The notes under the pieces are model-generated. The model was not told the DNA's origin, did no database searches, and worked only from the letters and a program-made list of their open reading frames with translations. Shown piece by piece: positions 46,002 through 63,364 of a stretch of DNA of 64,000 bases (position 1 is the stretch's first letter; every line of letters begins with the position of its first letter). Made by a program: the position numbers and the translations under genes. The DNA comes from an uncultured Lachnospiraceae bacterium (GTDB taxonomy: Bacteria > Bacillota > Clostridia > Lachnospirales > Lachnospiraceae): contig CACZBK010000010.1 in the NCBI GenBank assembly GCA_902779395.1, positions 1 through 64,000 of the forward strand, read 5' to 3'.

Positions 46002-46030
46002 AACCACGGGACGGATCCCGTGGTTTTTAA
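46002..46030 (+). terminator. Terminator after the patatin gene
   Basis: A perfect 10-base stem AACCACGGGA (46002-46011) / TCCCGTGGTT (46016-46025), tetraloop CGGA, then TTTAA. It separates the activase/patatin transcript from the HD-GYP operon. Confidence 0.9.
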
Positions 46031-46056: not shown

Positions 46057-46086
46057 TTGCCTGATATCCTGTAAATATGGTATACT
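46057..46086 (+). promoter_or_regulatory. Promoter of the HD-GYP operon
   Basis: TTGCCT (46057-46062), 18-base spacer, TATACT (46081-46086), about 50-60 bases upstream of the first gene. No other promoter is visible before 56593, so it probably serves all four genes. Confidence 0.6.
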
Positions 46087-46146
46087 GTTCTTTTAGGAAA
46101 AAGGATTTTTCCGTAAAAATAGACATGTTTATGGGTGATCCGGCTG

Positions 46147-48369
46147 ATGGGTGAAAAAAAAGGAATTTACAAGCGTATCAGGGAGTATGTCTATAATCCT
46201 GCCATAGATATAAAGGAAAGGACCTTTATATTATTCTCCATTTCTGTTCTTTTTGCATTATTTGCAGCTATACCGACGGGTATCATCATGAAAGAGCCGT
46301 TATCGGCTACGATATCGACGATCGTCGGAGCAGTGCTTTTTACCGCATATGTGATATATTCCTTTAAAAAGAAACAGATAAGCAGGGCTAAGATATTTAT
46401 ATCGGTGGTCCTTATATTTGTTTTTCTTCCTGCCATGCTTTTTACAAACGGAGGTATAGAGGGAGGAACACCCATATGGCTCCTGTTGGGGACTATCTAT
46501 ATCGCTCTGATCCTGGAAGGCAGGATCAAGGTGATAATGCTCATATGCGAAGCGCTGGTAATGTGCATATGCTGGACAGTAGCTTATTATTATCCGGAAC
46601 TGATAACCGGATATACCAGGGAAGGTAATTATTTTGATACTATAGTGGCCCTGTTCATCGTAAGTGCCATTGTATATACGATGATAACTTTCCAGAATAC
46701 CATATTCCACAGGGAAGAGGCTCATAAGAATTCCAAAAGGCTTTTTGAACAGACAGCTACGGCACTTGTTAATGCGATAGATGCAAAAGATGTGTATACC
46801 CATGGTCATTCGGCACGTGTTGCGGAGTATTCAAGGAAGATCGCGGAACTGGCCGGAAAAAGTCCTGCCGAATGTGAAGAGATCTATTATGTGGCTCTGC
46901 TTCACGATGTCGGAAAGATAGGTGTTCCCGAGGCCATAATTAATAAAGAAGGCAAGCTTACACAGGAGGAATTCGAGAAGATAAAAGAGCATCCCGTAAT
47001 GGGATCGCAGATACTCCAGAGTATCACGGAGTATCCTTATATAAGCATAGGCGCTCATTTCCATCATGAGCGTTATGACGGAAAAGGATATCCCCTTGGG
47101 CTTAAGGGAACGGATATCCCTGAGATAGCCCGTATAGTTTCTGTTGCCGATGCATATGATGCCATGACATCAAAAAGAAGCTATCGTGACCCCATCCCTC
47201 AGGATAAGGTAAGGGAAGAATTCATAGAAGGTGCAGGCTCGCAGTTCGATCCGGAATTTGCCAATTATATGCGTCACCTGATCGATTTGGATACCGAGTA
47301 CGAGATGAAGGAGAGGGAGGAGATATCCGAGTATTCCGATAATGAAGAGCTGGTCATCGGAGAACATAAGGATCTTGTATCGGAAGGTATCGTCCTGACT
47401 GCAAATATGACGTACATAAGCCTTAAGGTCGATCCGGATATAAATACTCCCGGAAGCAGAGCGATCCCGTCGGTCTTACTCTTTGACTCGCTGGACGGTC
47501 GTTTCCATAATGATAAAAAGGATGTGGAGACTCTTTTGTATTTTGAATACTGCGAGACAGGATTTGACGGAGCATGCAGCGGATCCGGTATAAGAAAGAG
47601 CGAAACAGCAGAAAGCGACGGAGATGCGGGTCTTGCGGAAAACGAGTATAAGATCGAAGCTGTTAAGGTAAAGGACCATGCGCTTCTCAGGATAACAGGC
47701 AGGCATCATACACACGAGGTCATCATAGCTCTTCCCGACAGTTCCAGATTCGTATATGCGGGGCTTACCGGGGAACATTGTATAATAAGCAGGATACGGA
47801 CGGAAAAAGCCGAAGAGCCTGTCGGACCAGGCTATATCAGACGTATTGCGGAGGAGATCTCCTATATAAATGTACCGGAAGGAGATATTCCCAACGTGCA
47901 GGTGGACGGATACCGCAGTGAGTCCACAAAGGGTATTCCCATAGAGGACAGCATGACGATCATATTCCATACCATGAGCCTTCCTACGGCAAGGCTTGTG
48001 TGGCATTGTCCTTCCTATGTGATCTTTACTTCCGATGACGGTACGGTGAACGGTCCCGGATATAAGGAGTTTTCGCTTGTAAGGCTGGATGGAGAGAACT
48101 GGGAGGGTGAAAATCTTGCCGATAATGAGATCATAGTGAACAGGCAGGATTTTCGCGGCTGGGATTCCTGGAAGAAAATGAATAAAAAAGGTTATGACTG
48201 TACGGTTTCGTTTAACAGAAGAGGAAAGAAGATAGAATCGTATACCGAGAATGCCGGGATATTTATAAGGAATATCACGGAGATCAATGTTGAGGCGGAA
48301 GAGATATTCGTTGCGCTGTCAGGTGATCAGGTAGCGCTTACGAATATCAGGATTAAACATAAAGAGTAA
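46147..48369 (+). CDS. Membrane HD-GYP protein with orphan C-terminal domain (A)
   Basis: A 740-residue predicted cyclic di-GMP phosphodiesterase. About six membrane helices (residues about 25-190) form a MASE-like sensor. The HD-GYP domain (about 200-370) is complete: THGHSARVAEYS, LLHDVGKIGVP, HHERYDGKGYP, VADAYDAMTSKRSY and GSQFDPEF. Then comes a domain of about 340 residues (to the end) shared with the protein at 54187: both contain DIPNV-x-V-x-GYR, SDDG-x-VNG and TENAGIFI. I know no family for it. ATG 46147 or GTG 46135 may be the start; neither has a good ribosome site. First gene of a four-gene operon. Confidence 0.82.
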   Translation: MGEKKGIYKRIREYVYNPAIDIKERTFILFSISVLFALFAAIPTGIIMKEPLSATISTIVGAVLFTAYVIYSFKKKQISRAKIFISVVLIFVFLPAMLFTNGGIEGGTPIWLLLGTIYIALILEGRIKVIMLICEALVMCICWTVAYYYPELITGYTREGNYFDTIVALFIVSAIVYTMITFQNTIFHREEAHKNSKRLFEQTATALVNAIDAKDVYTHGHSARVAEYSRKIAELAGKSPAECEEIYYVALLHDVGKIGVPEAIINKEGKLTQEEFEKIKEHPVMGSQILQSITEYPYISIGAHFHHERYDGKGYPLGLKGTDIPEIARIVSVADAYDAMTSKRSYRDPIPQDKVREEFIEGAGSQFDPEFANYMRHLIDLDTEYEMKEREEISEYSDNEELVIGEHKDLVSEGIVLTANMTYISLKVDPDINTPGSRAIPSVLLFDSLDGRFHNDKKDVETLLYFEYCETGFDGACSGSGIRKSETAESDGDAGLAENEYKIEAVKVKDHALLRITGRHHTHEVIIALPDSSRFVYAGLTGEHCIISRIRTEKAEEPVGPGYIRRIAEEISYINVPEGDIPNVQVDGYRSESTKGIPIEDSMTIIFHTMSLPTARLVWHCPSYVIFTSDDGTVNGPGYKEFSLVRLDGENWEGENLADNEIIVNRQDFRGWDSWKKMNKKGYDCTVSFNRRGKKIESYTENAGIFIRNITEINVEAEEIFVALSGDQVALTNIRIKHKE

Positions 48370-48384
48370 AACCGGAGCGCTTGA

Positions 48385-50565
48385 ATGAAGCGTATGTTTG
48401 AAAGAAAGAAAAACAGTATCTTCCATCCTGCAGTATTAGCGCTTATGCTGATATCGATACTGCTTAATATTTTTTTGTCCATGCTGATAAGGACAACGGA
48501 TCTTCCCTTTTTTGTCGATACCGTAGGAACGATAACAGCTACGGCACTGGGAGGGATAGTTCCGGGTATAATAACGGCATTTATAACAAATGCCGTCAAT
48601 TTCCTTATGGACGGACAGTCAATATTCTATGCCAGTCTGAACATGCTGATCGCCATAGTCAGTGCGCTTTTCTTCGGGGACAATTCGCCATACAGCAAAC
48701 ATAAACGCAGCGGGAATAAAAAGATCTGTATCCCCGATGTGATCATTTATATACTTATACTTTCTTTTATCGGCGGCGGTATCGGAGGAGAGATCACATG
48801 GTATATGAATGGTGTACCTTCGGATGCTCCCCTGAGTGTATCAATACAGAGATGGCTGTCAGACAATCTTTCCCTGAATATCTGGTTATGCCATGTTATA
48901 CAGACATATATCACCGATACGATAGATAAGGCTGTTTCGGTAGGTATTGCGTTTATCATCATTACCATCCTGCCGGAAAAAGTAAAGGATTATGTCAGAC
49001 TGTCATCCTGGATACAGAAACCTCTGACTTTTGAAGAACAGAACCTTGTGCACAAAAAGCATAAGGGACGCATGTCTATCGGTACCAGGATAAATCTGAT
49101 AATAATACTTTCCACACTTCTGATCACGGTTGTGGCATTTGTGTTCAGCCTGATCAGTTTCCGTGAGAAGACTATAGAAACTCTTTCCGAGTCTGCTGAA
49201 CAGATAGCCTATCTTGCTTCGCGTGAGATAGATCCGGATATGATAGATGAATATATCAAAAAGGGAAATGCTGCTCAGGGATATGCAAGGGTAAAAGGCA
49301 GGCTTACCATCATAAAAAACAGTTCACCGGATATAGCTTTTCTTTATGTATATAAGATACAGAAGAACAGCTGCAGGGTAGTGTTTGACCTTGGAACGAC
49401 TCTGAGCAACGGAAATTATGTGGAAGGTGAAGCGCCGGGTGTGGTGGTCCCTGTTGAAGAAGCCCTGCAGCCTTATATGAACGATCTTCTTGCGGGAAAG
49501 CGGATACCGCCTGTTCAGATAGTGGATGAATACGGAAGCTTTCTGGCTTCATACTGTCCGGTATATGATTCAAAAGGGAATTGTGTATGTTATGCCGTAT
49601 CAAATATTGAATCGGAGAGGATAGGTTTTCTGCTCGGCAAATATTTCGGCAAAGTCATCCTTTTGTTTTCGGGATTTATGATGCTCATAGTGGCGGTAAG
49701 CATACTGACTACGAGATATCATATCGTTATGCCTATCATGAGTATGACACTGTATGCCAATGAGCTGGCAGACAGCAAAGGCGGAGCGGACGAAGAAAGT
49801 CTTGAAAAGATAGAAGAACTGGATATACATACCGACGATGAAGTGGAACAGCTGTATAAAGCGATCTGTAAACTTACGGGTGAAACGGTATTCCAGCTGA
49901 ATGAAAACAGGAATAAGGCTGAAGCCATATCCAAAATGCAGAACGTTCTTATAATCACCATGGCGGATATGGTGGAAAGCAGGGATTCCGATACCGGAGC
50001 GCATGTACTTAAGACAGCCGCTTACGTAAGGATCATTTTGCAGGGGCTCAGGCGAAACGGATATTATACGGAAAAGATAACGGATAAGTATATGAGGGAC
50101 GTTGAAATGAGTGCGCCTCTTCATGATGTGGGAAAGATCAATATTCCCGATGCGATACTTAATAAACCCGGAAAGCTTACTGCTGAAGAATATGAGATAA
50201 TGAAGACACACACTACGGCAGGAATGAATATCCTTGAGAAGGCCATAAGCTCGATGGAAGGTGATAACTATCTTAAAGAAGCCAGAAACATGGCGGCCTA
50301 TCATCATGAAAGATGGGACGGGAAAGGATATCCGGAAGGACTTCACGGAGAGGTAATACCTTTATCGGCCAGGATCATGGCAGTGGCGGATGTTTTTGAT
50401 GCGCTTTCATCTCCGAGAGTATATAAACCCGCATTTCCTCTGGAAGAGGCGCTGAAGATGATACAGGAGGGGGCAGGTACGCAGTTCGATCCCAAATGTG
50501 TAGAGGTGTTTGTTGATTCGATAGTAGAAGTCAAGAAGATACATAAGAAATATCAGGAGACCTGA
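48385..50565 (+). CDS. Membrane HD-GYP protein with extracellular sensor (B)
   Basis: A 726-residue predicted c-di-GMP phosphodiesterase. The N-terminal membrane block of five to six helices (about residues 12-200) looks like an ECF S-component-type or MASE sensor (FFVDTVGTITATALGGIVPG). Another helix (about 232-255), an extracellular sensor region (about 256-430), a helix (about 432-455), a HAMP-like linker and HD-GYP follow. The catalytic motifs are intact: DTGAHVLKTAAY, PLHDVGKINIP, HHERWDGKGYP, VADVFDALSS, GTQFDP. It lacks the orphan domain of A and C. The gap to gene A is 15 bases and it overlaps the next start by one base. Confidence 0.85.
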   Translation: MKRMFERKKNSIFHPAVLALMLISILLNIFLSMLIRTTDLPFFVDTVGTITATALGGIVPGIITAFITNAVNFLMDGQSIFYASLNMLIAIVSALFFGDNSPYSKHKRSGNKKICIPDVIIYILILSFIGGGIGGEITWYMNGVPSDAPLSVSIQRWLSDNLSLNIWLCHVIQTYITDTIDKAVSVGIAFIIITILPEKVKDYVRLSSWIQKPLTFEEQNLVHKKHKGRMSIGTRINLIIILSTLLITVVAFVFSLISFREKTIETLSESAEQIAYLASREIDPDMIDEYIKKGNAAQGYARVKGRLTIIKNSSPDIAFLYVYKIQKNSCRVVFDLGTTLSNGNYVEGEAPGVVVPVEEALQPYMNDLLAGKRIPPVQIVDEYGSFLASYCPVYDSKGNCVCYAVSNIESERIGFLLGKYFGKVILLFSGFMMLIVAVSILTTRYHIVMPIMSMTLYANELADSKGGADEESLEKIEELDIHTDDEVEQLYKAICKLTGETVFQLNENRNKAEAISKMQNVLIITMADMVESRDSDTGAHVLKTAAYVRIILQGLRRNGYYTEKITDKYMRDVEMSAPLHDVGKINIPDAILNKPGKLTAEEYEIMKTHTTAGMNILEKAISSMEGDNYLKEARNMAAYHHERWDGKGYPEGLHGEVIPLSARIMAVADVFDALSSPRVYKPAFPLEEALKMIQEGAGTQFDPKCVEVFVDSIVEVKKIHKKYQET

Positions 50566-53500
50566 TGAGAAAAAGAACAGTCTTAAGATCCATATTATGC
50601 ATGTGTCTTGTCTTTATCCTGACAGGCAGTTTTTTCTGTGCTTTCGCATCGGATACGGATCCTGATGTGTGGAACGAGACAGACGGTGATCATTATGTGG
50701 GTGGCGGGTATGCCGCAACTTCACAGATCCCGGGCGTATATTATCTGCCTGTTGTATACGATCCATCAAACGGACTGCCCGTGTCGGAGGTATACAGTAT
50801 CCTGGCAGCACGCAACGGGTATATATGGATAGGAGGGCACAGCGGTATCGTCAGGTATGACGGAGTGAGTTTTGAAAAGATCCAGTCGACTGACGGTCTT
50901 ACCAGCGGAAGGTTTTTGTTTGAAGATAAGAGCGGAAAGATATGGGTTGCTACCAATGACAGCGGAGTCGTGGTACTGGGTCAGAAAGAAAGATGGCATT
51001 ATACCAAAGAGGACGGACTCAGATCCGATTCGATCAGAAGCTTTGCGCAGGATGCGAGAGGAAATGTGTTTATCAGTTCCACATCCGGAGTATCGTATGT
51101 GGATCCTTCAATGAATCTGCACAGAATTGATGATGAACGTATAAATAACGAGAGGATCTCAAGGCTTGTAACGGATATAAACGGAGTTGTTTACGGGCAT
51201 ACAGGAAGCGGCGCTGTATTTACCGTTCTAACACAGGGTATCGGAGAGTACTATGAAAGTGCCGATATGAATATGGAAAAAGTTACAACTATCCTTGCTG
51301 ACCGCAGTTATCCGGGAAGGCTGTACTTCGGGACCGAAAGTAATCGTGTGTATTACGGCCGGTTTGGCGATACGGCGGATAATATGATGAAGATCGATAC
51401 AGGAGATGTTACCGGTATCAACTGGATGCATTACGCCTGCTCACGGCTGTGGATAGCTTCGACACGCAGCGCCGGATATGTGGATGTGAACAAAAAGTTT
51501 ATTGCTTTTGAAAGTCTGCCCTTAAAAGATTCGATCGAAATGATGACATCCGATCATCAGGGAAATATCTGGTTTGCATCGTCAAGATACGGTGTAATGA
51601 AACTGGCAGCAGATAATTTTCTGGATATCAGCAGTGCATCGGGAATGGAACCGGAAGTGGTAAATGCAACCTGTAAAAGGAGAAGAAACCTTTATGTGGG
51701 AACAGATAAAGGAGTAAAGATAATCAATGAGGATTATTATACAAAGAATAATTATATAACCGATTTTTTTGGGGAGGCCAGGGTACGATGCATCATGAAT
51801 GACAAAAGAGGCAATACCTGGTTTTCCGTATACACAGATGACCTTGGCCTGGTATGCCTGAATCTGGGAGGTTCCCTGATACAGTATACGACCGAAGACG
51901 GGCTTCCTTCCAACGCCGTAAGGTGCACGGCAGAGATGAAAGACAGTACGATCATAGCAGGTACAGACAAGGGTATAGCCCTGATCAAAGACGGCAGAGT
52001 CACAGAGACTTACGGTGTGGCGGACGGAATGAAAAATCCCGTTATAGTCACGGTGTGTGAAGGCCGGAACGGTGAGATATATGCCGGCAGTGACGGGGAC
52101 GGTATCTATGTTATAAAAGACGGTATAGTCAAAAGGATAGGAAAAGAAGACGGCCTTGGAAGTGATGTGCTGATGCGCATCAAAAGAGATGATGAAAGAA
52201 ATCTGATCTGGGTAATAACATCCAATTCCGCAGGATATATAAAAAACGGCAGGATAACAACGCTTACCACTCTTCCGCATATGGATAATACCGATATCAT
52301 ACCGGCAAATGATAAACTGTGGTTTTTGTCTTCACAGGGGATCTATGTGGTCAATGCTTCTGATGCCGTAAATGACAGCGTGATCAGTTATAAACTTTTT
52401 GACAGTTCAAACGGTCTGACCAGTATGCCGATATCGTATTGCTACAGCAGCTACGATGAATACGGTAACCTGTATATTGCCGGACAGACAGGGGTATCGG
52501 TCATCAATGTGAACGAGCTTTATGATCTTTCCGGAAAGACCCTCGTGGGAGTAAGGTCTGTCTTTTATGACGGAACGGAGATAGTAGCTGATGAAGACGG
52601 TACATATACGCTTCCGCCAAAGGGAGGCAGGATACAGATCAATGCAGCTGTATTTGATTATACTTTATCCAATCCTCTTATCAGACTGTATCTTGAAGGC
52701 ATGGATGATGAAGGTATCACCGCCTATCAGAATGAATTGCCGCCGCTTGAATATACAGCCATAAAATACGGCGATCATCCGCTTCATATACAGATACTTG
52801 ACAGTATGACAAAAAAAGTCATATCGGATCATATCATTCCCATGGTCAAAAAACCCGGGCTTTTTGAAAGAGTATCGGTAAGGGTAACGGTCATGGCGGT
52901 ACTTTTGCTGGCTCTGGGAATAATCGTATGGCGTATAACCACGAGCACTATCATCAGAAAGCAGTATGTACAGGTGCAGGAAGCAAAGGATGAGGCTGAA
53001 AGAGCCAATAAAGCCAAAACAAGATTCCTTGCAAATATGAGTCATGAGATACGTGTGCCCATCAATACCATAATAGGAATGGATGAGATGATCTTAAGGG
53101 AGGAGAGCAAACATGTTCCCCGTGAATACCGCAGTGCGATCGCCGGATACGCAAAAAATATCAGATATGCATCCGAAACCCTTCTTAATATCATCAATGA
53201 CCTTTTCGACATATCCGGGATAGAAACCGGAAGGATACGTCTGGTAGAGGAGGAATATGACAGCCATGAGATGCTGCGTAGCGCAATCTCCATAGCCCGT
53301 GGCCAGGCAGAAGAAAAGAAGCTGTATTTTAATATTATTGTTGATAAAAAGCTGCCCAGGAGGCTGTATGGTGACAGCGGAAAGATAAAACAGATACTTC
53401 TCATACTTCTGTCTAATGCTGTAAAGTATACGGATGAAGGCGGATTTGTATTAAGCGTAAGGGTTGTGAATATAAATGAAGCCGGCGTAGAATTGGAGAT

Positions 53501-54194
53501 TTCCGTAAAAGATACCGGAATAGGAATAAAGAGTGAGGAAACGGAAGGACTCTTCCATGCATATGAGAGAATGGAGGAAGTGATAGATCCGGAGGCAAGA
53601 AAGACAGGACTTGGGCTTGATATATCACGTCAGCTTACGGAGCTGATGGGAGGAAAGATCCGCTGCGAGAGCGTTTACGGCGAAGGCAGTGAGTTTATAT
53701 TGAACATCAAACAGAAGATAGTGGATCCCGATGTGACCGGAGAGTTTTCGGAAGACGGGGATGAAGCGGAGCTTGTTTCCTATAAGCCTATGTTTATGGC
53801 TCCGGATGCCGATATACTGGTGGTTGATGATAATCCGATGAACCTTAATATAATAAGGGGACTGCTCAGACCTACCAGGGTATTCGTCAGTACCGCGCTC
53901 AGCGGGGAGGAGTGTCTCAATAAGATCGCAGACAATGATTTTAACGTGGTATTTCTCGATCATATGATGCCAGGAATGGACGGGGAGCAGACTATAAGAA
54001 AGATCAGGGAGCAGCATCCGGATCTTCCGGTATATGCGCTGTCTTCGGGTACGGAAGAAGGACGTGAAGAGTATTTCAGATCTTTAGGCTTTACGGGATT
54101 TCTGAATAAGCCCGTGGATGTCAGGGCGCTTGAAAAGGCGATATTAAAACATCTTCCGAGTAAAATGGTTTCCGAGGTGATCAGGCATGTTTGA
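50565..54194 (+). CDS. Beta-propeller hybrid histidine kinase
   Basis: A 1209-residue hybrid kinase. Signal peptide (about residues 1-28), two seven-bladed-type propellers of Reg_prop repeats (about 60-690; AARNGYIWIGGHSGIVRYDG, GNIWFASSRYGVMKL), a Y_Y_Y-like beta domain (about 690-765), membrane helix (about 775-795), HisKA with NMSHEIRVPINTIIGMDEM (His near 826), HATPase (ILLSNAVKYTDE, DTGIGIKSEE, GLGLDISRQL) and a receiver with phospho-Asp in VFLDHMMPGMDG (near 1131). No AraC domain or HPt is present, unlike Bacteroides HTCS proteins, so output must pass to another protein. It lies between two HD-GYP genes with overlapping ends. Confidence 0.9.
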   Translation: MRKRTVLRSILCMCLVFILTGSFFCAFASDTDPDVWNETDGDHYVGGGYAATSQIPGVYYLPVVYDPSNGLPVSEVYSILAARNGYIWIGGHSGIVRYDGVSFEKIQSTDGLTSGRFLFEDKSGKIWVATNDSGVVVLGQKERWHYTKEDGLRSDSIRSFAQDARGNVFISSTSGVSYVDPSMNLHRIDDERINNERISRLVTDINGVVYGHTGSGAVFTVLTQGIGEYYESADMNMEKVTTILADRSYPGRLYFGTESNRVYYGRFGDTADNMMKIDTGDVTGINWMHYACSRLWIASTRSAGYVDVNKKFIAFESLPLKDSIEMMTSDHQGNIWFASSRYGVMKLAADNFLDISSASGMEPEVVNATCKRRRNLYVGTDKGVKIINEDYYTKNNYITDFFGEARVRCIMNDKRGNTWFSVYTDDLGLVCLNLGGSLIQYTTEDGLPSNAVRCTAEMKDSTIIAGTDKGIALIKDGRVTETYGVADGMKNPVIVTVCEGRNGEIYAGSDGDGIYVIKDGIVKRIGKEDGLGSDVLMRIKRDDERNLIWVITSNSAGYIKNGRITTLTTLPHMDNTDIIPANDKLWFLSSQGIYVVNASDAVNDSVISYKLFDSSNGLTSMPISYCYSSYDEYGNLYIAGQTGVSVINVNELYDLSGKTLVGVRSVFYDGTEIVADEDGTYTLPPKGGRIQINAAVFDYTLSNPLIRLYLEGMDDEGITAYQNELPPLEYTAIKYGDHPLHIQILDSMTKKVISDHIIPMVKKPGLFERVSVRVTVMAVLLLALGIIVWRITTSTIIRKQYVQVQEAKDEAERANKAKTRFLANMSHEIRVPINTIIGMDEMILREESKHVPREYRSAIAGYAKNIRYASETLLNIINDLFDISGIETGRIRLVEEEYDSHEMLRSAISIARGQAEEKKLYFNIIVDKKLPRRLYGDSGKIKQILLILLSNAVKYTDEGGFVLSVRVVNINEAGVELEISVKDTGIGIKSEETEGLFHAYERMEEVIDPEARKTGLGLDISRQLTELMGGKIRCESVYGEGSEFILNIKQKIVDPDVTGEFSEDGDEAELVSYKPMFMAPDADILVVDDNPMNLNIIRGLLRPTRVFVSTALSGEECLNKIADNDFNVVFLDHMMPGMDGEQTIRKIREQHPDLPVYALSSGTEEGREEYFRSLGFTGFLNKPVDVRALEKAILKHLPSKMVSEVIRHV

Positions 54195-56592
54195 GCTGAT
54201 ACAGAAATACCAATTGAATATCATGCTTTGTCTTTCCAGTATGTGTCTTATCGTAGGCTTTTTTTCCATACTCACAAATACTCTTCCCAAAAAAAGAAAG
54301 CGCTCGATAGCCAATCTGGAATTTTCGGCAAGTATCCTTCTGTATTCCGACAGGCTGGCATATATCTATCACGGTGTTCCGGGAGACAGTGCATACTGGA
54401 TGGTCAGGATAACCAATTTCCTGGTGTTTTTTATGACCATATCGGTGGTACAGTCGTTTAATATCTACCTTACGGATGTATGCAGAAATGAGATAGGTCT
54501 TGAAAAGACACCAAAGCGTCTTGTGGCTGTGGAAGCGATATCTTTCTTCGGCTGGATAATGGTCGTGATCTCCCAGTTTACCGGGCTGTATTATTATTTT
54601 GATGAGAATAATGCATATCAGAGAGGGCAGGGTTTTATAATCGCTTATATAATCCCTTTTATTGCCCTGCTCATCCAGCTGTCAGTGATATTACAGTATG
54701 TCAGACGTATGAGCCGGAAGATAAGCATACCCCTTGTGCTCTTTACCCTGATACCCATGCTCGCATCTCTGGTGCAGGCTAAGTTTTACGGCGTATCGCT
54801 TACTAATATGTCGATCGTGGGAATGGGCGTGGTGCTGTATGTTTTCGCGATAATGGAAATGAACGACATTTTGGAAAAAGTGCAGAAACGGCGTCTGGAT
54901 GAGGCAAACAATAAAAGCCTGTCGATAAGGAGATCCTTTGAGCAGACTGTAAAAGCGGTAGCGGGTGCTTTTGATTCAAGAGACAGATATACGAGAGGCC
55001 ATTCATTAAGAGTTGCCGAATATTCGAGCAGGATCGCGCAGGCATACGGTATGGATGACAGGGACTGTTTCAGGGTATATAATTCCGCAATGCTTCATGA
55101 CATAGGAAAAGTAATGATCTCTGAGGACATCATCAAAAGAGCGGGACACCTTACGGAAGCTGAAGAAGCGGAACTGAGAAAACACCCGTTACTGGGCGGA
55201 GAGATACTGTCGGAAATCGAAGAGATACCGTATTTAAGAACGGCAGCTCTTTATCATCATGAGAGATATGACGGGAAAGGCTATCCTGAAGGGAAAAAGG
55301 GAGAGGAGATACCTATCATCGCACGTATCGTTGCTGTTGCCAATGCATATGATGAGATGACGTCACATAAATCATCGCGTGAACCCTATGCACAGGGAAG
55401 GGTACGCGAAACGCTGTTGAGCGCTTCGGGAAGGGAATTCGATCCCGAGATAGTGAAGATCATGGTAGATATGATCGACAAGGATACGGATTACGTCATG
55501 CGGGAAGCTGATGATGAGGTAGTTGAAGCGGCAGATCGTAACGACCTGACACTTGTTAGCAAAATGCACTTTGAGGTATACAAAGAACAGGTTTCCGACG
55601 GTATTCGTCTCGAAAGGGAATTTCTGAAGATAAGGTTTGAGACCTGTCCCGATGGCGGATACGAAAGAAAAAAGTCCCTGCCTGCCATTATTCTTTTTGA
55701 TTCTTTTGACAGGTGTGTGCACAGGGATGAAAGAAGCATCAGGGACCAGCGGTATTTCGAGTACGGTGAGATATGGATGGACGGCCGTACTATCTGTACC
55801 GCAGCAAGGGAGATAAAGACAGATATAAGAAAGAAGAAATCGGAAGAAGGTATAGCGTATAATGACTGGATCCCTTATGAGATAGAGGCGGTATGTATAA
55901 AGGATCATGTGAAGCTGAAGATAAGCAGCCCTTATATATTTGCGGATGTTACTGTAGCTCTTCCGGATGCCACGAGATTTGTTTTTCTTGGATTAAGCGG
56001 TGAAAACTGCAGTATAAGAAATGCATCGGTTAAAAAGGTATCGCTGCAGGCCGGCGATTATCATATTCCAAGGATAGCGCCTGAGGTAAATTATTTTACC
56101 CGCAGGGACGGAGATATCCCGAATGTTGAAGTCAACGGATACAGGGAGGAATATACCAAAGGCATTTCCGTAGAAGACGGAATGCGCATACTTTTCCGCA
56201 CGCAGAGCCTTCCCGTAGCGGATCTTGTGCATCACTGCGCGTACATCCTTCTGTATTCATCCGATGACGGCGAGGTGAACGGTAAGAATTATGCCGAATA
56301 CGCATGTATCCGTCTTGACGGAGATGATGCAACGGATATGGGTAAGTCCGAGAATAAGCTTACCATACACAGAAGTGAGGATTTTGAAGGCTGGGACGCA
56401 TTCAAGGCTCTTAACAGAAAAGGGCTTGATTATGAGATAAGATTCTCACGAAAGCGCAACAGGATCACCTTCAGTACTGAGAACGCCGGTATCTTTATCG
56501 AATGCGAGAGTATTGTTCCTAAAGAAAATGAAAATGTATACGCAGCACTTACCGGTAATCTTTGCGTGATAATGGATATAAGGATACGCTGA
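54187..56592 (+). CDS. 7TM HD-GYP protein with orphan C-terminal domain (C)
   Basis: An 801-residue predicted c-di-GMP phosphodiesterase. Seven membrane helices (about residues 10-230) like the N-terminal 7TM sensors of kinases, then HD-GYP (about 255-425): TRGHSLRVAEYS, MLHDIGKVMIS, HHERYDGKGYP. The segment normally VADAYDAMTS reads VANAYDEMTS, replacing the Asp that in characterised HD-GYP enzymes helps bind metal. The C-terminal domain of about 340 residues (455-801) is homologous to that of protein A (LPDATRFVFLGLSGENC, DIPNVEVNGYR, TENAGIFI). The start overlaps the hybrid kinase by 8 bases, so it is the last gene of the operon. Confidence 0.82.
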   Translation: MFELIQKYQLNIMLCLSSMCLIVGFFSILTNTLPKKRKRSIANLEFSASILLYSDRLAYIYHGVPGDSAYWMVRITNFLVFFMTISVVQSFNIYLTDVCRNEIGLEKTPKRLVAVEAISFFGWIMVVISQFTGLYYYFDENNAYQRGQGFIIAYIIPFIALLIQLSVILQYVRRMSRKISIPLVLFTLIPMLASLVQAKFYGVSLTNMSIVGMGVVLYVFAIMEMNDILEKVQKRRLDEANNKSLSIRRSFEQTVKAVAGAFDSRDRYTRGHSLRVAEYSSRIAQAYGMDDRDCFRVYNSAMLHDIGKVMISEDIIKRAGHLTEAEEAELRKHPLLGGEILSEIEEIPYLRTAALYHHERYDGKGYPEGKKGEEIPIIARIVAVANAYDEMTSHKSSREPYAQGRVRETLLSASGREFDPEIVKIMVDMIDKDTDYVMREADDEVVEAADRNDLTLVSKMHFEVYKEQVSDGIRLEREFLKIRFETCPDGGYERKKSLPAIILFDSFDRCVHRDERSIRDQRYFEYGEIWMDGRTICTAAREIKTDIRKKKSEEGIAYNDWIPYEIEAVCIKDHVKLKISSPYIFADVTVALPDATRFVFLGLSGENCSIRNASVKKVSLQAGDYHIPRIAPEVNYFTRRDGDIPNVEVNGYREEYTKGISVEDGMRILFRTQSLPVADLVHHCAYILLYSSDDGEVNGKNYAEYACIRLDGDDATDMGKSENKLTIHRSEDFEGWDAFKALNRKGLDYEIRFSRKRNRITFSTENAGIFIECESIVPKENENVYAALTGNLCVIMDIRIR

Positions 56593-56675: not shown

Positions 56676-57677
56676 ATGAGGAAGTTTTTTGTTTTACTTA
56701 TTGCCGCTATGGCAATGCTTTTTGTGTTGGGAGGATGTGCATCTGCCGCATCCCAAAACACACAGACCGCACCGGATGATACGGAAGCTGTATCGGAAGA
56801 TACGCAGATACGTATCGGTGCTCTTAAAGGCCCCACATCAATAGGGCTTGTCAGGCTCATCCATGAGCAGGAAGAATACCCCTACAGCTTTACTATGGAG
56901 ACCCAGGCTGATGTACTGATCTCCGGCATCGCATCGTCTGATCTTGATATCGCGCTGATCCCCGCAAATGTTGCGAGCGTCCTTTATAAAAAGACCGGCG
57001 GCGGCATAGCCGTGATCGATATCAATACACTTGGTGTTCTTTATATGGTCAGCGGAAATAAGGATATCACCTCACTTGAAGATCTGGCAGGAACAACGGT
57101 ATATACCACGGGTGCGGGAACCACGCCCGAATATGTACTAAGGTACCTGCTTTCGGCAAAAGGGCTCAGTGACAGCGTAAAGATCGAGTTTAAGTCGGAA
57201 GCCGCCGAAGTGGCTGCACAGCTGGCAGCGGATCCTTCCTGTGTGGGTATGCTCCCGCAGCCTTTCGTAACGGCTGCACTGGCTCAGAACGATCAGCTTT
57301 CGATAGTGCTGGATATGACAAAGGAATGGGATGCCTTAAACAACGGATCACGCCTTGTTACGGGTGTTACGGTTGTGAGAAAAGCATTCCTGGAAGAGCA
57401 TAAGGAAGCAGTTTTAAAATTCCTGGCTGATCATGCGCAGAGCGTGGACTTTGTAAACTCCGATACAGAAACGGCAGCAGAATATACCGTGGAAGCAGGG
57501 ATAATAGAAAAGGCACCGGTGGCCATGAAGGCTATTCCTTTCTGTAATATAGTATGTATAAAAGGAAGTGAGATGAAGGATGCATTATCCGGTTACCTTA
57601 AGATATTATTCGACCAGGATCCTGCCTCCGTAGGCGGGGAGCTGCCTTCGGATGATTTCTACGGTATCGGAGAGTGA
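56676..57677 (+). CDS. ABC transporter substrate-binding lipoprotein (NMT1/SsuA-like)
   Basis: A 333-residue extracellular lipoprotein. The signal peptide ends in lipobox LGGC (Cys at about residue 21), followed by an acidic Ser/Thr linker. The mature part has the NMT1/THI5-like type II binding fold: IRIGALKGPTSIGLVRL, DLDIALIPANVASVL, LAGTTVYTTGAGTTPEYVLRYL and VGMLPQPFVTAALAQ. Relatives bind sulfonates, nitrate, thiamine precursors or other small anions or aromatics; the ligand is not clear. Ribosome site AAAGGAG. The stop overlaps the GTG start of the transporter, so they are coupled. Confidence 0.88.
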   Translation: MRKFFVLLIAAMAMLFVLGGCASAASQNTQTAPDDTEAVSEDTQIRIGALKGPTSIGLVRLIHEQEEYPYSFTMETQADVLISGIASSDLDIALIPANVASVLYKKTGGGIAVIDINTLGVLYMVSGNKDITSLEDLAGTTVYTTGAGTTPEYVLRYLLSAKGLSDSVKIEFKSEAAEVAAQLAADPSCVGMLPQPFVTAALAQNDQLSIVLDMTKEWDALNNGSRLVTGVTVVRKAFLEEHKEAVLKFLADHAQSVDFVNSDTETAAEYTVEAGIIEKAPVAMKAIPFCNIVCIKGSEMKDALSGYLKILFDQDPASVGGELPSDDFYGIGE

Positions 57678-59041
57678 GAAATAAGTGGGTAAAAAAAATA
57701 CTGATCCTTTTATTCTGGTTCCTGCTCTGGCAGCTTACAGCTCTGTTTGTCAATAATCCGGTGTACTTCGCATCTCCTGCGGAAACACTTAAAGAGCTGG
57801 CGGTACAGGGCAGGACCGCAGTTTTTTGGCAGTCGGTTACAGGATCGCTCATAAGGATCACGGGAGGTTTTTTCATTGCCTCTTTCTTTGCATTTGCCCT
57901 GGCATTTCTTTCGTACTTTGTTCCCTTAAGCGGCGCGGTCCTGAGCCCTTTCATAAACTTTTTAAAATCCGTTCCGGTCGCAGCGGTGGTAGTGATATTA
58001 CTGATATGGTGGGGTTCGGAACATCTGGTACTGTGTATCAGCTTTATGGTAGTTTTTCCGAATGTTTATGAAAACATGCTTACAGGGCTTAAAAAAACCG
58101 ATACTAAACTTCTTGAAATGGCAGAGGTTTTCGGTATGGGGTTCGTATCGCGGTTTTTATGGATCTACAGGGGCGCGTACCGTCCATATCTTTTTTCGGC
58201 GGTGAGCGTATCTCTGGGAATGGCTTTCAAGTCGGGTATAGCGGCAGAGATAATCGGCCTTCCGGCACTCAGCATAGGAGAGAGACTCTACCGTGACAAG
58301 ATCTATCTGAACACAGCCGGAGTATTTGCATGGATAATAGTGATCCTCCTGATCAGCTTTGCAGCAGAAAAACTTATACTGTTTATTTTGAAGATCATTT
58401 CGGGGATCCCCGCAGCCTGTCCGAAAGAACCGTCCGGGAACACACACAGCACCGATGCGGCAAATGGCATGGGCAGTGCGGATATAAAAGCAGAGGGCAT
58501 TAAGAAAGCTTATAATGAGCGCCTGATGATAGACTGCAGCTTAGATCTTAAAGCCGGAGGCGTATATTATCTGAATGCTCCTTCGGGAAAGGGCAAGACC
58601 ACACTTCTCCATCTGCTTGCCGGAATAGAAAAAAGTGATGAAGGAACCGTAAGCTGCGGAAGGATAAGCATGGTATTTCAGGATGACAGGCTTATCGGAA
58701 ATGCAAATGCCCTGCGCAATCTGGAGCTTGCGGGCTGCAGGGGGGATCTGACAGCGGAGATAAAAGAAGTACTTCCGGGACGGGTCTTTGAAACACCGGC
58801 GGCAAGATTGAGCGGAGGTGAGAAGAGACGTCTGTCCGTTTTGCGGGCTCTTCTGCATCCTTCGGATATACTGCTTATGGATGAACCCTTTGCAGGACTT
58901 GATGAGACTGCGAAGCTTAAGATGATAGAATATATCAAACGCCACCGTAACGGGAGGACACTGCTCATAGCAGGGCATGATGTACTGAGCGGATCGGAGG
59001 ATATCGTTAGTATAGGGGGATTGGTATGGAAACAAGAATAG
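57674..59041 (+). CDS. Fused ABC permease-ATPase (SsuC/SsuB-like)
   Basis: A 455-residue fusion of importer permease and ATPase normally encoded by two genes. The permease part (about residues 1-240) has six helices and the EAA loop EVFGMGFVSRFLWIYRGAYR. A linker (about 240-272) leads to a compact ATPase: Walker A APSGKGKTTL (near 300), signature RLSGGEKRRLS (near 377), Walker B ILLMDEPFAGLD, and GHDVL for the switch. The ATPase is short (about 185 residues). It starts with GTG overlapping the binding-protein stop by 4 bases. With the binding protein it forms a complete uptake system of two polypeptides. The next gene overlaps its end by 16 bases. Confidence 0.88.
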   Translation: MRNKWVKKILILLFWFLLWQLTALFVNNPVYFASPAETLKELAVQGRTAVFWQSVTGSLIRITGGFFIASFFAFALAFLSYFVPLSGAVLSPFINFLKSVPVAAVVVILLIWWGSEHLVLCISFMVVFPNVYENMLTGLKKTDTKLLEMAEVFGMGFVSRFLWIYRGAYRPYLFSAVSVSLGMAFKSGIAAEIIGLPALSIGERLYRDKIYLNTAGVFAWIIVILLISFAAEKLILFILKIISGIPAACPKEPSGNTHSTDAANGMGSADIKAEGIKKAYNERLMIDCSLDLKAGGVYYLNAPSGKGKTTLLHLLAGIEKSDEGTVSCGRISMVFQDDRLIGNANALRNLELAGCRGDLTAEIKEVLPGRVFETPAARLSGGEKRRLSVLRALLHPSDILLMDEPFAGLDETAKLKMIEYIKRHRNGRTLLIAGHDVLSGSEDIVSIGGLVWKQE

Positions 59042-59384: not shown

Positions 59385-59771
59385 ATGCCAAGCTGGATCG
59401 CTGTTATAGATGATGATAAAACAAATCTTAAGACTGCAGGTATGATCTTGAGCCGCAGTAATATGAAGGTATCTGCATTTAAGTCTGCTCAGGTCTTTCT
59501 GGATAATATGAGTGGGGACAGTTCTCCCGATCTGATCCTTTTGGATATCCTGATGCCCGATTGTGACGGATTTGAAGCATTTACCCGCATAAGGGACAGG
59601 GAAAAGGAACTTGGCAAAAGTCCGGTACCTATAGTTTTCCTTACGGCTAATGATGATCCCGAAGCCAGAAAGCGCGGACTTGAGATGGGGGCCGTGGATT
59701 TTATGGAGAAGCCTTTTGTTCCGGACATATTGGTAAGTCGTGTTAAGAGTATAATCGGATCTAAGGAATAA
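59385..59771 (+). CDS. Stand-alone receiver-domain response regulator
   Basis: A 128-residue CheY-like single-domain response regulator. The acidic pocket is VIDDDKTNLK, the phospho-Asp is in LILLDILMPDCDGFE (near residue 51), the Thr is in VFLTAND and the Lys is in MEKPFVPD. No output domain follows. It is encoded 5 bases upstream of a large hybrid kinase, so it is likely its phospho-target or a phosphate sink in the relay. Ribosome site GAGGTGG. Confidence 0.92.
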   Translation: MPSWIAVIDDDKTNLKTAGMILSRSNMKVSAFKSAQVFLDNMSGDSSPDLILLDILMPDCDGFEAFTRIRDREKELGKSPVPIVFLTANDDPEARKRGLEMGAVDFMEKPFVPDILVSRVKSIIGSKE

Positions 59772-59776
59772 ACGGA

Positions 59777-62700
59777 ATGGATATAGATTCTATTGATAAT
59801 GCCCTGATGCTGACATCAGCCGTTATCGGACTGCTCATAAGTCTTTTTAAGTATATCGAGCGTCCGCGCCGCGGCTGGTTATACATGTCTGTTTTTTTTC
59901 TCGCTTCTTTTCTGAGTGATTATTACTGGACTACCTATACGCTGGTCATGGGAGATTCTCCGGATGTATCTGCGCTGATCGCGTATTTCGGATGGAACGC
60001 CGCATTTCTCGTGCTGTTTATAGCTGCCATAAAGATGCGTGTACCCGGGAGCAGGAAGTTTTTCCATCCTCTTATGCTCCTTCCCATACCGCTTAATATA
60101 TATCAGTTTTCATTATATATAACTTTCGGCGGCCTTTTTAATAATATCTGGCAGGTGGGGGTCACCACGGTCACAGCCGTCTTCTGTTTACAGTCGATAA
60201 TATATCATCTTAAAAACAAAAAAAACGGAATGCCTTTTCCGCATGTGCATGTTTTTATACTCGTATATGTGGCATTGCAATATGCGATGTGGACAGCATC
60301 CTGCTTTGACTGGGAGAATGAGATCGCGGATCCCTTTTACTGGTTTGCTTTTATCAGCTATGCCGTGGTCGTGATAATGGCCTTTTCAATAAGCAGAGGC
60401 TATGGTGAAAAAAAGGATGAAGCAGCAAAAACCACCTCCGATCTGAGGCTGCAGATAATACTTCAGTTTCTGATGGCGCTTATAATCGTCGGGTCATGTG
60501 TGGGAGGTTTTTTCCTGACTGACTGGATGAAAAATGCACTTCCTTCAGGTGCGGAGAACAGTACGGTAAATAACGTTATAACAGTGATGCTGTTTATTAT
60601 CTCCGTATTTCTGGTTGCGATGATCCTTGCCGTTATGTATCTGATGGCTTCCAAACAAAAGACGCTGAGCAATGCAGGGACAGAACACGAGAATTCAAAG
60701 CGCAGCAGGTTTAATCTGATCTTTACGATAGTAGTGACATTTGTTCTTATGGTTTTTGCGGTGGTGTACAATTCCGTTATCTTCTACAGGGCATCGGTCA
60801 CGAGCATATATGATGCAGGAGACGATAAGGCACAATCCACATCAACGGAGCTTGAGAATTATCTGACAAAGGCGATGTCTACGCTTAAAGTGGCGGCAGA
60901 TTCCATTGAGCTGATGATAGAGAGTGGTGACAGCCAGGAACAGATAGTCAGTTATATACTCGATCAGACTTCCCTGCAGGCTAATGAACTGGATGAAAAT
61001 TTTACGGGACTTTATGCTTATGTAAGAGGAGAATACATGGACGGGCTGGGCTGGGAACCGCCTGAGGGATATGATGCGAAGAGCAGGGTATGGTACACCG
61101 CAGCTGTAGAAGCAAATGGTAAAACGACGATAGTATCTCCTTATGTGGATGCCCAGACACAATCCGTGGTCATCACCATAACCAAGATGCTGGGATGTGA
61201 AGGGGATGAAAACGGCAAATATGTTGCTGCTCTCGATGTTATCGTTAATCATATCCAGGAAACGACAGAGGCTGTGGATATGGGCGGCAAAGGATATGCG
61301 ATGATACTTAATAAAGACGGATTTGTCGTCGCACATAAGGATAAGGCTTATAACGGACAGAATATCAATGATATATACGGCGATGATCTCATGAGAAAGA
61401 TCGAAGCTGCCGGAAGCGGCAGCCTGGCGGTAGAAATGGCGGACGAAGAGTGTACGCTTTTTGTTAACAGGGTCATGGAACAGTGGTATGCAGTGGTGGT
61501 TGTAAACAGTTCGGAGCTTCTGGCCGGCGTACATTCACAGCTTTTTGTCAATATCATTGTTTCGGTGATCATCTTTGCACTCATAACATTATTCTATCTG
61601 ATAGGTTATGCAAATGAGCAGGCATACAGTAAAAAGGTGGAAGAGATGAGTGCCGGCAGGCAGAAGCAGGAGTATGAGGCAGAGGTGCTCAGGCTTGAGA
61701 AGCTGGCTGCGGATGAGGCCAATAAGGCAAAATCCAAATTCCTTGCAGACATGTCTCATGAGATACGTACACCTATCAATGCTATCCTGGGTATGAATGA
61801 GATGGTCCTGCGGGAGGCCGAAGATAAAAGCCTGCTTGAATATTCAAGAAATATAGAGATCTCCGGAAGAAATCTTTTACAGCTGATAAACAGTATACTT
61901 GATTTTTCGAAGATAGAAGACGGGAAGATGGAGATAATACCCGTCAGATACAGTATGAGTGCACTGATCACCTATCTTCTGAATTCGGTGCATGAAAAAG
62001 TGGAAGCGAAGGGCCTGGAATTAAAGGTGGAGATAGATCCCGAGATCCCATCCGAGCTTTACGGTGATGACACCAGGATCAACCAGGTGATCTTAAATCT
62101 GCTTACCAATGCCGTTAAATACACTCCGGAAGGAAGCGTGACCCTGGGAATAAAACTTAGAAAAACAGAAGGTGACAGAGCGCTTCTTTATGTGGAAGTA
62201 AAAGATACCGGCATAGGTATCAGGGAAAGCGATATGGAACGTCTCTTTGAATCCTTTGAGAGGCTTGATGAGATCCGGAACAGAAATATCGAGGGAACGG
62301 GACTGGGGATATCGATAACCACCAGCCTGCTGAAGTTGATGAACAGTGAGCTTAAGGTGGAAAGTACGTATGGAAAAGGATCTGTTTTTTCATTTGAACT
62401 CTGGCAGAAGATAGAAAATAAGGAGCCTCTGGGAGACTACACCACGCCTTCCGTGGAGGCCCATGAAAGGTATCATGAGTCATTCCATGCGCCATCCGCT
62501 AATATACTGATAGTTGATGATACGAAGATGAATCTTACCGTTGCGGTAAACCTGCTTAAAAAGACAGGCATAAAGATAGATACTGCCATAAGCGGTGAGG
62601 AGGCAATAGGCCTGGCCGGCAGGAATAAGTATGATCTTATCTTTATGGATCAGCGTATGCCGCGTATGAACGGTACCCAGGCTCTGGAAAAGATAAGAGC

Positions 62701-63364
62701 GCTCCCGGCGAAACTGAATCTTAATACGCCTGTCATCTGTCTTACGGCTGATGCCATAAGGGGCGCAAAGGAACGTTATCTTAAGGAAGGCTTTAATGAT
62801 TATCTGACAAAGCCCATAGACGGACGTTCATTCGAGGAAGCGCTGCTCACCTATCTGCCTGCGGAAAAGATAGAAAAAGGTGCAGTACAAAGTCCTGATG
62901 AAAAGGAAGGGGGAATATCGGAAGGTAAGGAGAAACTCTTTAAAGAGCTTAAGGCAGCCGGCATTGATACCTCGGCGGGACTGGGCTTTTCGATGAATGA
63001 AGAGAGTGTATATCTTGATATACTGAAGGAATATGCTACAGAATATGAAGACCGCAGCAGGAGCATAGAAGAATATTATGCAAAGAAGGACTGGGAGAAT
63101 TATTCGGTTTATATCCATTCCTTAAAGAGCACATCAAAGACCATAGGTGCTTCGGAGCTTTCCGCTCTGGCAGCAGAGCTTGAAAAGGCATCTTCCGATA
63201 AAGATGAAGCTGCTGTTAACGCTTCTCACAAAAAAGCGATGAAACTTTATTCGGAGCTGGCAGAGATAATCAGGAATAACTCTGATATGACACAGGGCGA
63301 TACTTCTGATGATGATGACGATGATGACATAATGGTATTTGAGCCGGTTGACGGCGATGAATGA
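59777..63364 (+). CDS. Hybrid histidine kinase with 7TM-like, Cache, receiver and HPt domains
   Basis: A 1195-residue multi-domain kinase. A membrane block (about residues 10-215, seven helices) and two further helices lead to another helix (about 313-338), an extracellular dCache sensor (about 340-590, with GYAMILNKDGFVVAHKD), a helix (about 593-615), HisKA (DMSHEIRTPINAILGMNEM, His near 660), HATPase (LLTNAVKYTPEG, GLGISITTSLL), a receiver with phospho-Asp in LIFMDQRMPRMNG (near 957) and an HPt domain with YIHSLKSTSKTIGA (His near 1113). The tail is a run of Asp. With the preceding lone receiver it makes a full phosphorelay. The closing hairpin starts 12 bases after its stop. Confidence 0.9.
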   Translation: MDIDSIDNALMLTSAVIGLLISLFKYIERPRRGWLYMSVFFLASFLSDYYWTTYTLVMGDSPDVSALIAYFGWNAAFLVLFIAAIKMRVPGSRKFFHPLMLLPIPLNIYQFSLYITFGGLFNNIWQVGVTTVTAVFCLQSIIYHLKNKKNGMPFPHVHVFILVYVALQYAMWTASCFDWENEIADPFYWFAFISYAVVVIMAFSISRGYGEKKDEAAKTTSDLRLQIILQFLMALIIVGSCVGGFFLTDWMKNALPSGAENSTVNNVITVMLFIISVFLVAMILAVMYLMASKQKTLSNAGTEHENSKRSRFNLIFTIVVTFVLMVFAVVYNSVIFYRASVTSIYDAGDDKAQSTSTELENYLTKAMSTLKVAADSIELMIESGDSQEQIVSYILDQTSLQANELDENFTGLYAYVRGEYMDGLGWEPPEGYDAKSRVWYTAAVEANGKTTIVSPYVDAQTQSVVITITKMLGCEGDENGKYVAALDVIVNHIQETTEAVDMGGKGYAMILNKDGFVVAHKDKAYNGQNINDIYGDDLMRKIEAAGSGSLAVEMADEECTLFVNRVMEQWYAVVVVNSSELLAGVHSQLFVNIIVSVIIFALITLFYLIGYANEQAYSKKVEEMSAGRQKQEYEAEVLRLEKLAADEANKAKSKFLADMSHEIRTPINAILGMNEMVLREAEDKSLLEYSRNIEISGRNLLQLINSILDFSKIEDGKMEIIPVRYSMSALITYLLNSVHEKVEAKGLELKVEIDPEIPSELYGDDTRINQVILNLLTNAVKYTPEGSVTLGIKLRKTEGDRALLYVEVKDTGIGIRESDMERLFESFERLDEIRNRNIEGTGLGISITTSLLKLMNSELKVESTYGKGSVFSFELWQKIENKEPLGDYTTPSVEAHERYHESFHAPSANILIVDDTKMNLTVAVNLLKKTGIKIDTAISGEEAIGLAGRNKYDLIFMDQRMPRMNGTQALEKIRALPAKLNLNTPVICLTADAIRGAKERYLKEGFNDYLTKPIDGRSFEEALLTYLPAEKIEKGAVQSPDEKEGGISEGKEKLFKELKAAGIDTSAGLGFSMNEESVYLDILKEYATEYEDRSRSIEEYYAKKDWENYSVYIHSLKSTSKTIGASELSALAAELEKASSDKDEAAVNASHKKAMKLYSELAEIIRNNSDMTQGDTSDDDDDDDIMVFEPVDGDE

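Follow-up and report, generated by a model that had tools for sequence, protein, structure and literature searches.

A cluster of four genes on the forward strand of a 64,000-nucleotide stretch of DNA from an uncultured Lachnospiraceae bacterium (contig CACZBK010000010.1; the window) encodes three HD-GYP proteins (A, B and D) and a propeller-type hybrid histidine kinase (C). Three of these genes, in the order B-C-D, form a cassette that recurs in related genomes of rumen and gut bacteria. The enzymatic part of D often decays in such cassettes while its lectin-shaped tail stays, which suggests that D is a signal reader and not a third enzyme. B would then be a phosphodiesterase for cyclic dimeric guanosine monophosphate (c-di-GMP), C an extracellular sensor kinase and D either a reader of c-di-GMP or a partner protein, with weak catalysis or none, and with the window carrying a lineage-specific version of a modular cassette; we give this reading about an even chance. 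A first-pass annotation, made from the sequence alone, had described all four genes as one operon coding for three distinct predicted c-di-GMP phosphodiesterases around the kinase.

Recurrence of the B-C-D gene order

The four open reading frames (ORFs) and the gaps between them (+15, -1 and -8 bases) are exactly as first annotated: A at 46135..48369 (744 amino acids, GTG start with an alternative in-frame ATG at 46147), B at 48385..50565 (726 amino acids), C at 50565..54194 (1209 amino acids) and D at 54187..56592 (801 amino acids), all on the + strand. Relatives were collected with the D protein (P0004) in 144 related genomes, 52 of which gave a match at 1e-40 and 51 stretches of which were read, and with a profile of the C-terminal region of D, which yielded 80 loci and at least 516 relatives among the matches listed; individual loci carry L numbers below. 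The matches listed come mostly from Lachnospiraceae of rumen samples, including the Butyrivibrio isolates X503 and CB08, and also from Ruminococcus and Treponema metagenome-assembled genomes (MAGs). B and D are both same-strand neighbours of the kinase gene at 42 of 47 distinct propeller-kinase loci, a count that is biased upward because these loci were gathered through relatives of D and that may be one too low, as the D gene of L082 was found by homology search and is unlisted by ORF calling. The window's own genes are excluded from this count and from the ligand table and B-D pair counts given below. The B-C-D order extends over at least five genus codes, with gaps of -70 to 52 bases between B and C (n = 44; 60 bases or less in 44/44) and of -23 to 64 bases between C and D (n = 26; 60 bases or less in 25/26).

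The recurring unit is thus B-C-D and not the four-gene set. Within the nine-member clade to which the window belongs, two members carry an A gene upstream, the window included; in the other case (L091/L184) the order is A, a double-REC gene, B, C and D, and A is 70% identical to window A over 737 amino acids. No A-like gene was seen 5' of the cassette in the remaining seven clade members, for most of which the reading extends only some 1.3-2.9 kb in that direction. The four-gene order was therefore ruled out as a conserved unit, and recurrence in other loci likewise rules out an order unique to the window. Conservation of the order across genera, put forward with the first-pass annotation as support, accordingly holds for B-C-D and fails for A, and what survives of its dedicated extracellular-signal to c-di-GMP system is a recurring signal-to-HD-GYP cassette. 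No description of this arrangement was found in the literature searched, the coverage of which left most subscription journals outside.

The same parts are also found in other combinations. B and D occur with no C between them in L128, L130 and L157. A gene for a LacI-type periplasmic-binding-protein/GGDEF protein lies directly 5' of B in L179 (10618-12537; Pfam), in a cluster without D; ORFs with a similar start are present at L180:213-2129 and L182:472-2439, the Pfam scan having been made for L179 only. L182 encodes a kinase without a propeller, and its contig ends soon after. Propeller and HD-GYP domains are fused in one protein in L171, L172, L173 and L175, and the fusions of L060 and L154 also bear the C-terminal region. 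The L171 fusion (L171:684-4376, contig G000:C23) is a 1230-amino-acid Reg_prop - Y_Y_Y - HD-GYP protein from the window's own genome, in which a direct coupling of propeller and HD-GYP thus exists as well. L085 (1328-21066) carries tandem cassettes, namely double-REC, B, C, D and then B, B, C, D, the last D being cut by the locus edge. B-C-D-type clusters or D genes of Treponema/Spirochaetaceae MAGs (L149, L159, L141) are nested among Bacillota in the D tree, a placement that reflects either cross-phylum transfer or mis-binning.

Metal ligands and the C-terminal region of D

The HD-GYP domains of A, B and D match the HD_5 profile at 113-125 bits (cut-off 27.2), B at 125.1 bits. According to the PmGH study (PMC4159591), alanine at six of the eight metal ligands of PmGH abolished activity, whereas activity was lower but still present in E185A and D305A; K225A, D183A and D308A impaired it as well, and seven of the ligands are common to both HD-GYP groups. 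All seven shared ligands are present in 46/53 B proteins, 33/35 A-type proteins and 2/2 propeller fusions, and in 30 of the 33 D proteins classed as solo versus 20 of the 50 D proteins encoded in operons. A second alignment method (pairwise re-call) agreed on intactness for 171/171 proteins. The ligand table leaves out the A-type rows L116, L126 and L063, whose HD-GYP domain was unreadable, and rows whose last 300 residues duplicated an earlier row. Both A-type exceptions are truncated or terminal (the locus edge interrupts L091, and L061 begins at a contig end), and the three solo-D exceptions (L100, L141 and L120) lie at contig starts, with the 3' end of a C gene preceding D in the first two. 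With ligands lost from D in 30 of the 50 operon genes, "three predicted phosphodiesterases" overstates the likely activity of the cluster.

Within the window, A and B are complete in the seven shared ligands, and A also has the GYP motif. D retains six of the seven and the HD motif; by alignment, N386 (codon at 55342..55344, + strand) takes the place of PmGH ligand D305. Asparagine at this position is common to eight of the nine clade members. It is the sole ligand loss in L087, L089, L091 and the window and is accompanied by further losses in L085, L088, L090 and L066, while L086 has lost other ligands. In the HD-GYP domain, pairwise identity averages 0.74 among solo D proteins, against 0.55 among intact and 0.47 among degenerate operon D proteins, while in the C-terminal region it is 0.45-0.47 in all three groups alike. 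G284 and P286 of the GYP motif are kept in 30 of 33 degenerate D proteins and Y285 in 22 (27 counting F); the GYP segment is deleted in L064, L141 and L159. Among 47 B-D pairs, D alone is damaged in 29, B alone in seven, neither in 11 and both in none. The seven B losses are all H221Y, all labelled Butyrivibrio, and form a single clade (one change). In the B genes of this clade (L092, L094-L098, L108) HD reads YD and D-T-G reads D-S-K/R, and D keeps all seven ligands.

B combines an N-terminus weakly similar to ECF S-components (model below cut-off), an extracellular sensor region and an HD-GYP domain at residues 528-704 (Pfam, hydropathy). It has all metal ligands of PmGH and the GYP motif, with aspartate at the E185 place within D-T-G. 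By motif, B is a predicted c-di-GMP phosphodiesterase of the E/D-T-G group, and A and D fall in the Y/F group. B resembles PmGH (PDB 4MCW) and TM0186 in the E/D-T-G signature and in a suitable residue at each of the eight ligand positions, and A resembles them in the seven shared ligands plus a Y/F-type residue. D differs in lacking D305 in the window and further ligands in relatives, and both A and D differ in bearing a C-terminal region without a Pfam model.

A published precedent for such a D is DvhD of Desulfovibrio vulgaris, described as a non-catalytic HD-GYP c-di-GMP receptor (PMC13090378). PDB entries 9RBZ and 9RC0, matched by alignment, are, we infer, structures of DvhD. Both D and DvhD are membrane-bound HD-GYP proteins with metal-ligand losses, and 9RBZ has asparagine at the D305 place and keeps the GYP loop. 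DvhD differs from D in its dCache and PAS parts and in belonging to a Lap-like adhesin system (same source), whereas D has a multi-transmembrane input, a C-terminal lectin-fold region and, in the window, an intact HD motif. Judged as a DvhD-like receptor, D shows the ligand loss, while three relatives have the GYP segment deleted.

A and D share 42% identity across 564 amino acids, from just N-terminal of the HD-GYP domain to the C-terminus (BLASTP). Judged by this similarity they are paralogues, so the three HD-GYP proteins cannot be counted as three distinct types. Their membrane parts have no significant mutual similarity by BLASTP. By a simple hydropathy scan A has six segments, in agreement with the first-pass annotation, and D also six, where seven had been assigned. 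A comprises the six transmembrane segments, an HD-GYP domain (residues 211-374) and a predicted C-terminal tandem lectin-fold region (about 400-744; hydropathy, Pfam, BLASTP). D comprises several transmembrane segments, an HD-GYP domain (residues 263-422) and the corresponding region (about 465-801; Pfam, BLASTP, AlphaFold, Foldseek). The region of D (55579..56589, + strand) is made up of two predicted beta-sandwich halves (AlphaFold, Foldseek) that are homologous to each other (hhalign 99.1%, E 1.5e-18), and sequence comparison identifies its homologue in A (47335..48366, + strand).

This region of about 340 amino acids is present in three copies in the source genome (A, D and one on contig G000:C19) and, in a phylum-wide sample, in 3/398 genomes including the window's own, all from the window's family. 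Among 48 members there is no credible Pfam match (best E 0.012, in 4/48) and no galectin profile among the Pfam matches; a sequence search of the PDB gave 0 matches. AlphaFold2 modelled the D region with pLDDT 92.2 and pTM 0.73 and its second half alone with pLDDT 94.3 and pTM 0.87. In Foldseek the whole region finds its best PDB match in galectin-8, both carbohydrate-recognition domains included (E 3.8e-7), but template-modelling scores (TM-scores) across the tandem are just 0.23-0.27; a half alone, scored by target length, reaches TM-scores of up to about 0.5 against galectins, VIP36 and legume lectins. These models support a tandem ConA-like lectin fold and do not back membership of the galectins. 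The likeness lies in the best Foldseek matches and in a tandem arrangement that recalls galectin-8; the differences are an identity of about 6-15%, the moderate TM-scores and a predicted cytoplasmic location, as no hydropathy segment follows the HD-GYP domain in A or D. The region has no Pfam model as yet and is a candidate for one.

Gene C and the surroundings of the cluster

C has a signal-peptide-like start, a Reg_prop propeller, a transmembrane segment and HisKA, HATPase_c and REC domains (Pfam, hydropathy). Its Reg_prop, HisKA, HATPase_c and Response_reg matches are above their cut-offs, and it passes as a Reg_prop hybrid histidine kinase. Hybrid two-component systems (HTCS) join an extracellular Reg_prop propeller and a histidine kinase to a C-terminal helix-turn-helix (HTH) DNA-binding domain. 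C shares with Bacteroides-type HTCS the propeller, histidine kinase and REC in a single chain; unlike them, it has no DNA-binding domain, HTH included, matched by Pfam, and its neighbours are HD-GYP proteins. No HPt domain was matched in window C by Pfam, unlike in the C proteins of most relatives. Many relatives contain an extra gene of about 253 amino acids with one REC by Pfam and a REC-like first half by eye (double-REC), located on either side of D or ahead of B. It accompanies 27 of 42 HPt-carrying C proteins versus 0 of 5 without HPt, the former count including the second C of L085, whose counted double-REC gene sits 14 kb off in the first cluster. No double-REC gene adjoins window C; the best relative in its own genome is 39% identical and on another contig. 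A stand-alone REC gene of 128 amino acids and a hybrid kinase of 1195 amino acids follow 2.8 kb 3' of D (59385-63364); the C-terminal end of this kinase is HPt-like by eye and could provide the HPt missing from C.

Upstream of A, a terminator-like hairpin with an 8-bp stem, a 4-nt loop and a T run (46004..46028, + strand) closes a patatin-like gene; it was read directly from the sequence and is not listed by the automated scan. A promoter-like TTGCCT-18-TATACT follows 5' of A (46057..46086, + strand), a consensus match of a kind that occurs at chance level in the region (31 sites observed versus 28.6 +/- 5.8 expected, part of them inside genes). The earlier statement that the cluster has no internal promoter is therefore not established. 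Directly 3' of D (56676-59041) lie genes named by eye as a substrate-binding-like protein and a 455-amino-acid ATP-binding cassette (ABC) permease-ATPase fusion. The substrate-binding protein has no match in any neighbourhood locus read, and both genes are for this reason left outside the cassette. Neither GGDEF nor EAL is matched in the window at E <= 0.001, as first noted, and with no Rfam match at gathering score a known structured RNA was discounted there. One GGDEF match begins 2.7 kb beyond the end of the window, in a genome (3.58 Mb, 56 contigs) with 55 GGDEF, 21 EAL and 14 HD_5 matches.

Interpretation of the B-C-D cassette

Several observations weigh against D as a signal reader. The reduced activity kept by PmGH D305A (PMC4159591) means that window D may still hydrolyse c-di-GMP, and deletion of the GYP segment in L064, L141 and L159 makes a c-di-GMP reader implausible there. 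The match to lectin folds is moderate, its TM-scores by target length reaching about 0.5 at most. On the D tree, which leaves out the short row L093, operon versus solo location needs only three changes and degeneracy five, and an independent-pairs test had too few pairs for significance. The naive hypergeometric value of 5e-4 for B and D never being damaged together is a lead and not a test, since it rests on few events, namely one clade of B losses and at least five changes in D. B and D are also not obligatory partners. Among 52 full-length B homologues in the 144 genomes, 26 are near a propeller gene, 19 near D and 18 near both, as counted for 52 of 62 B places (10 fragments left out) against part of the listed C (27) and D (30) places; the figure of 26 is generous, since the C places G021:C37, G026:C12, G034:C11 and G009:C24 hold long propeller proteins of 30-32% identity that are probably not C orthologues. 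L177 and L178, both with a double-REC gene, and L179 and L180 have B-C without D.

Part of this evidence would fit three working phosphodiesterases, with A, B and D all hydrolysing c-di-GMP under different sensors, C setting their activity and D305N only weakening D. The complete ligands of A and B, the six of seven in window D, the residual activity of PmGH D305A (PMC4159591) and the intact set in 20/50 operon D genes all agree with it. Yet the asparagine is shared by 8/9 clade members, five of the window's eight sisters show ligand losses besides or instead, and much of the extra conservation of the HD-GYP domain is gone in operon D, which leaves this alternative with perhaps one chance in four of being right. 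A loose assembly, one of many shuffled combinations of sensor-HD-GYP, propeller and GGDEF genes without joint function in which D is merely decaying, appears unlikely. It would account for genes related to A, B, C and D being found apart, an outcome named beforehand in the first-pass annotation as speaking against a joint system and seen here in part, and for the 33/52 B homologues with no D nearby (some close to contig ends), the rarity of an upstream A and the wealth of signalling domains in the genome. It is harder to reconcile with the tight gaps, an order repeated across five genus codes or more, fusion proteins that join these parts and a D that stays full-length, with membrane and C-terminal regions kept despite ligand loss. 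Least probable, and very unlikely, is an output by phosphotransfer in place of c-di-GMP, in which C, its HPt and the double-REC protein form the core relay and A, B and D are auxiliaries; the double-REC gene was indeed found only at loci with HPt-bearing C, but window C lacks both an HPt match and an adjoining double-REC gene, and B and D are retained all the same.

If D is a reader alongside a catalytic B, the propeller of C would sense an extracellular ligand and feed the hybrid kinase. Other Reg_prop kinases are known to sense carbohydrates, and by analogy the ligand of C may be a carbohydrate. B, as a catalytically competent HD-GYP protein with its own membrane and extracellular inputs, would lower c-di-GMP. 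D would descend from the same stock as a solo HD-GYP protein, as its paralogue, with constraint on the active site of D relaxed once in the operon; it may read c-di-GMP or the state of B through the retained GYP surface and pass the signal on through its predicted cytoplasmic tandem lectin-fold domain, which may bind a ligand of its own. A would be another, seemingly intact protein of the D family, placed upstream in the window's lineage. A more specific and rather doubtful version is an enzyme-pseudoenzyme pair of HD-GYP proteins, in which one stays catalytic and the other (usually D, B in one Butyrivibrio clade) can afford to lose its active site and, once degenerate, is a receptor or allosteric partner coupling c-di-GMP turnover to the lectin-fold domain, under a propeller kinase for plant-polysaccharide signals.

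The c-di-GMP networks of rumen Lachnospiraceae appear little studied, and the B-C-D cassette offers a concrete testable module in which to ask which HD-GYP protein hydrolyses c-di-GMP. It also bears on whether degenerate HD-GYP proteins may act as receptors outside Desulfovibrio and on the role of an intracellular lectin-fold domain.

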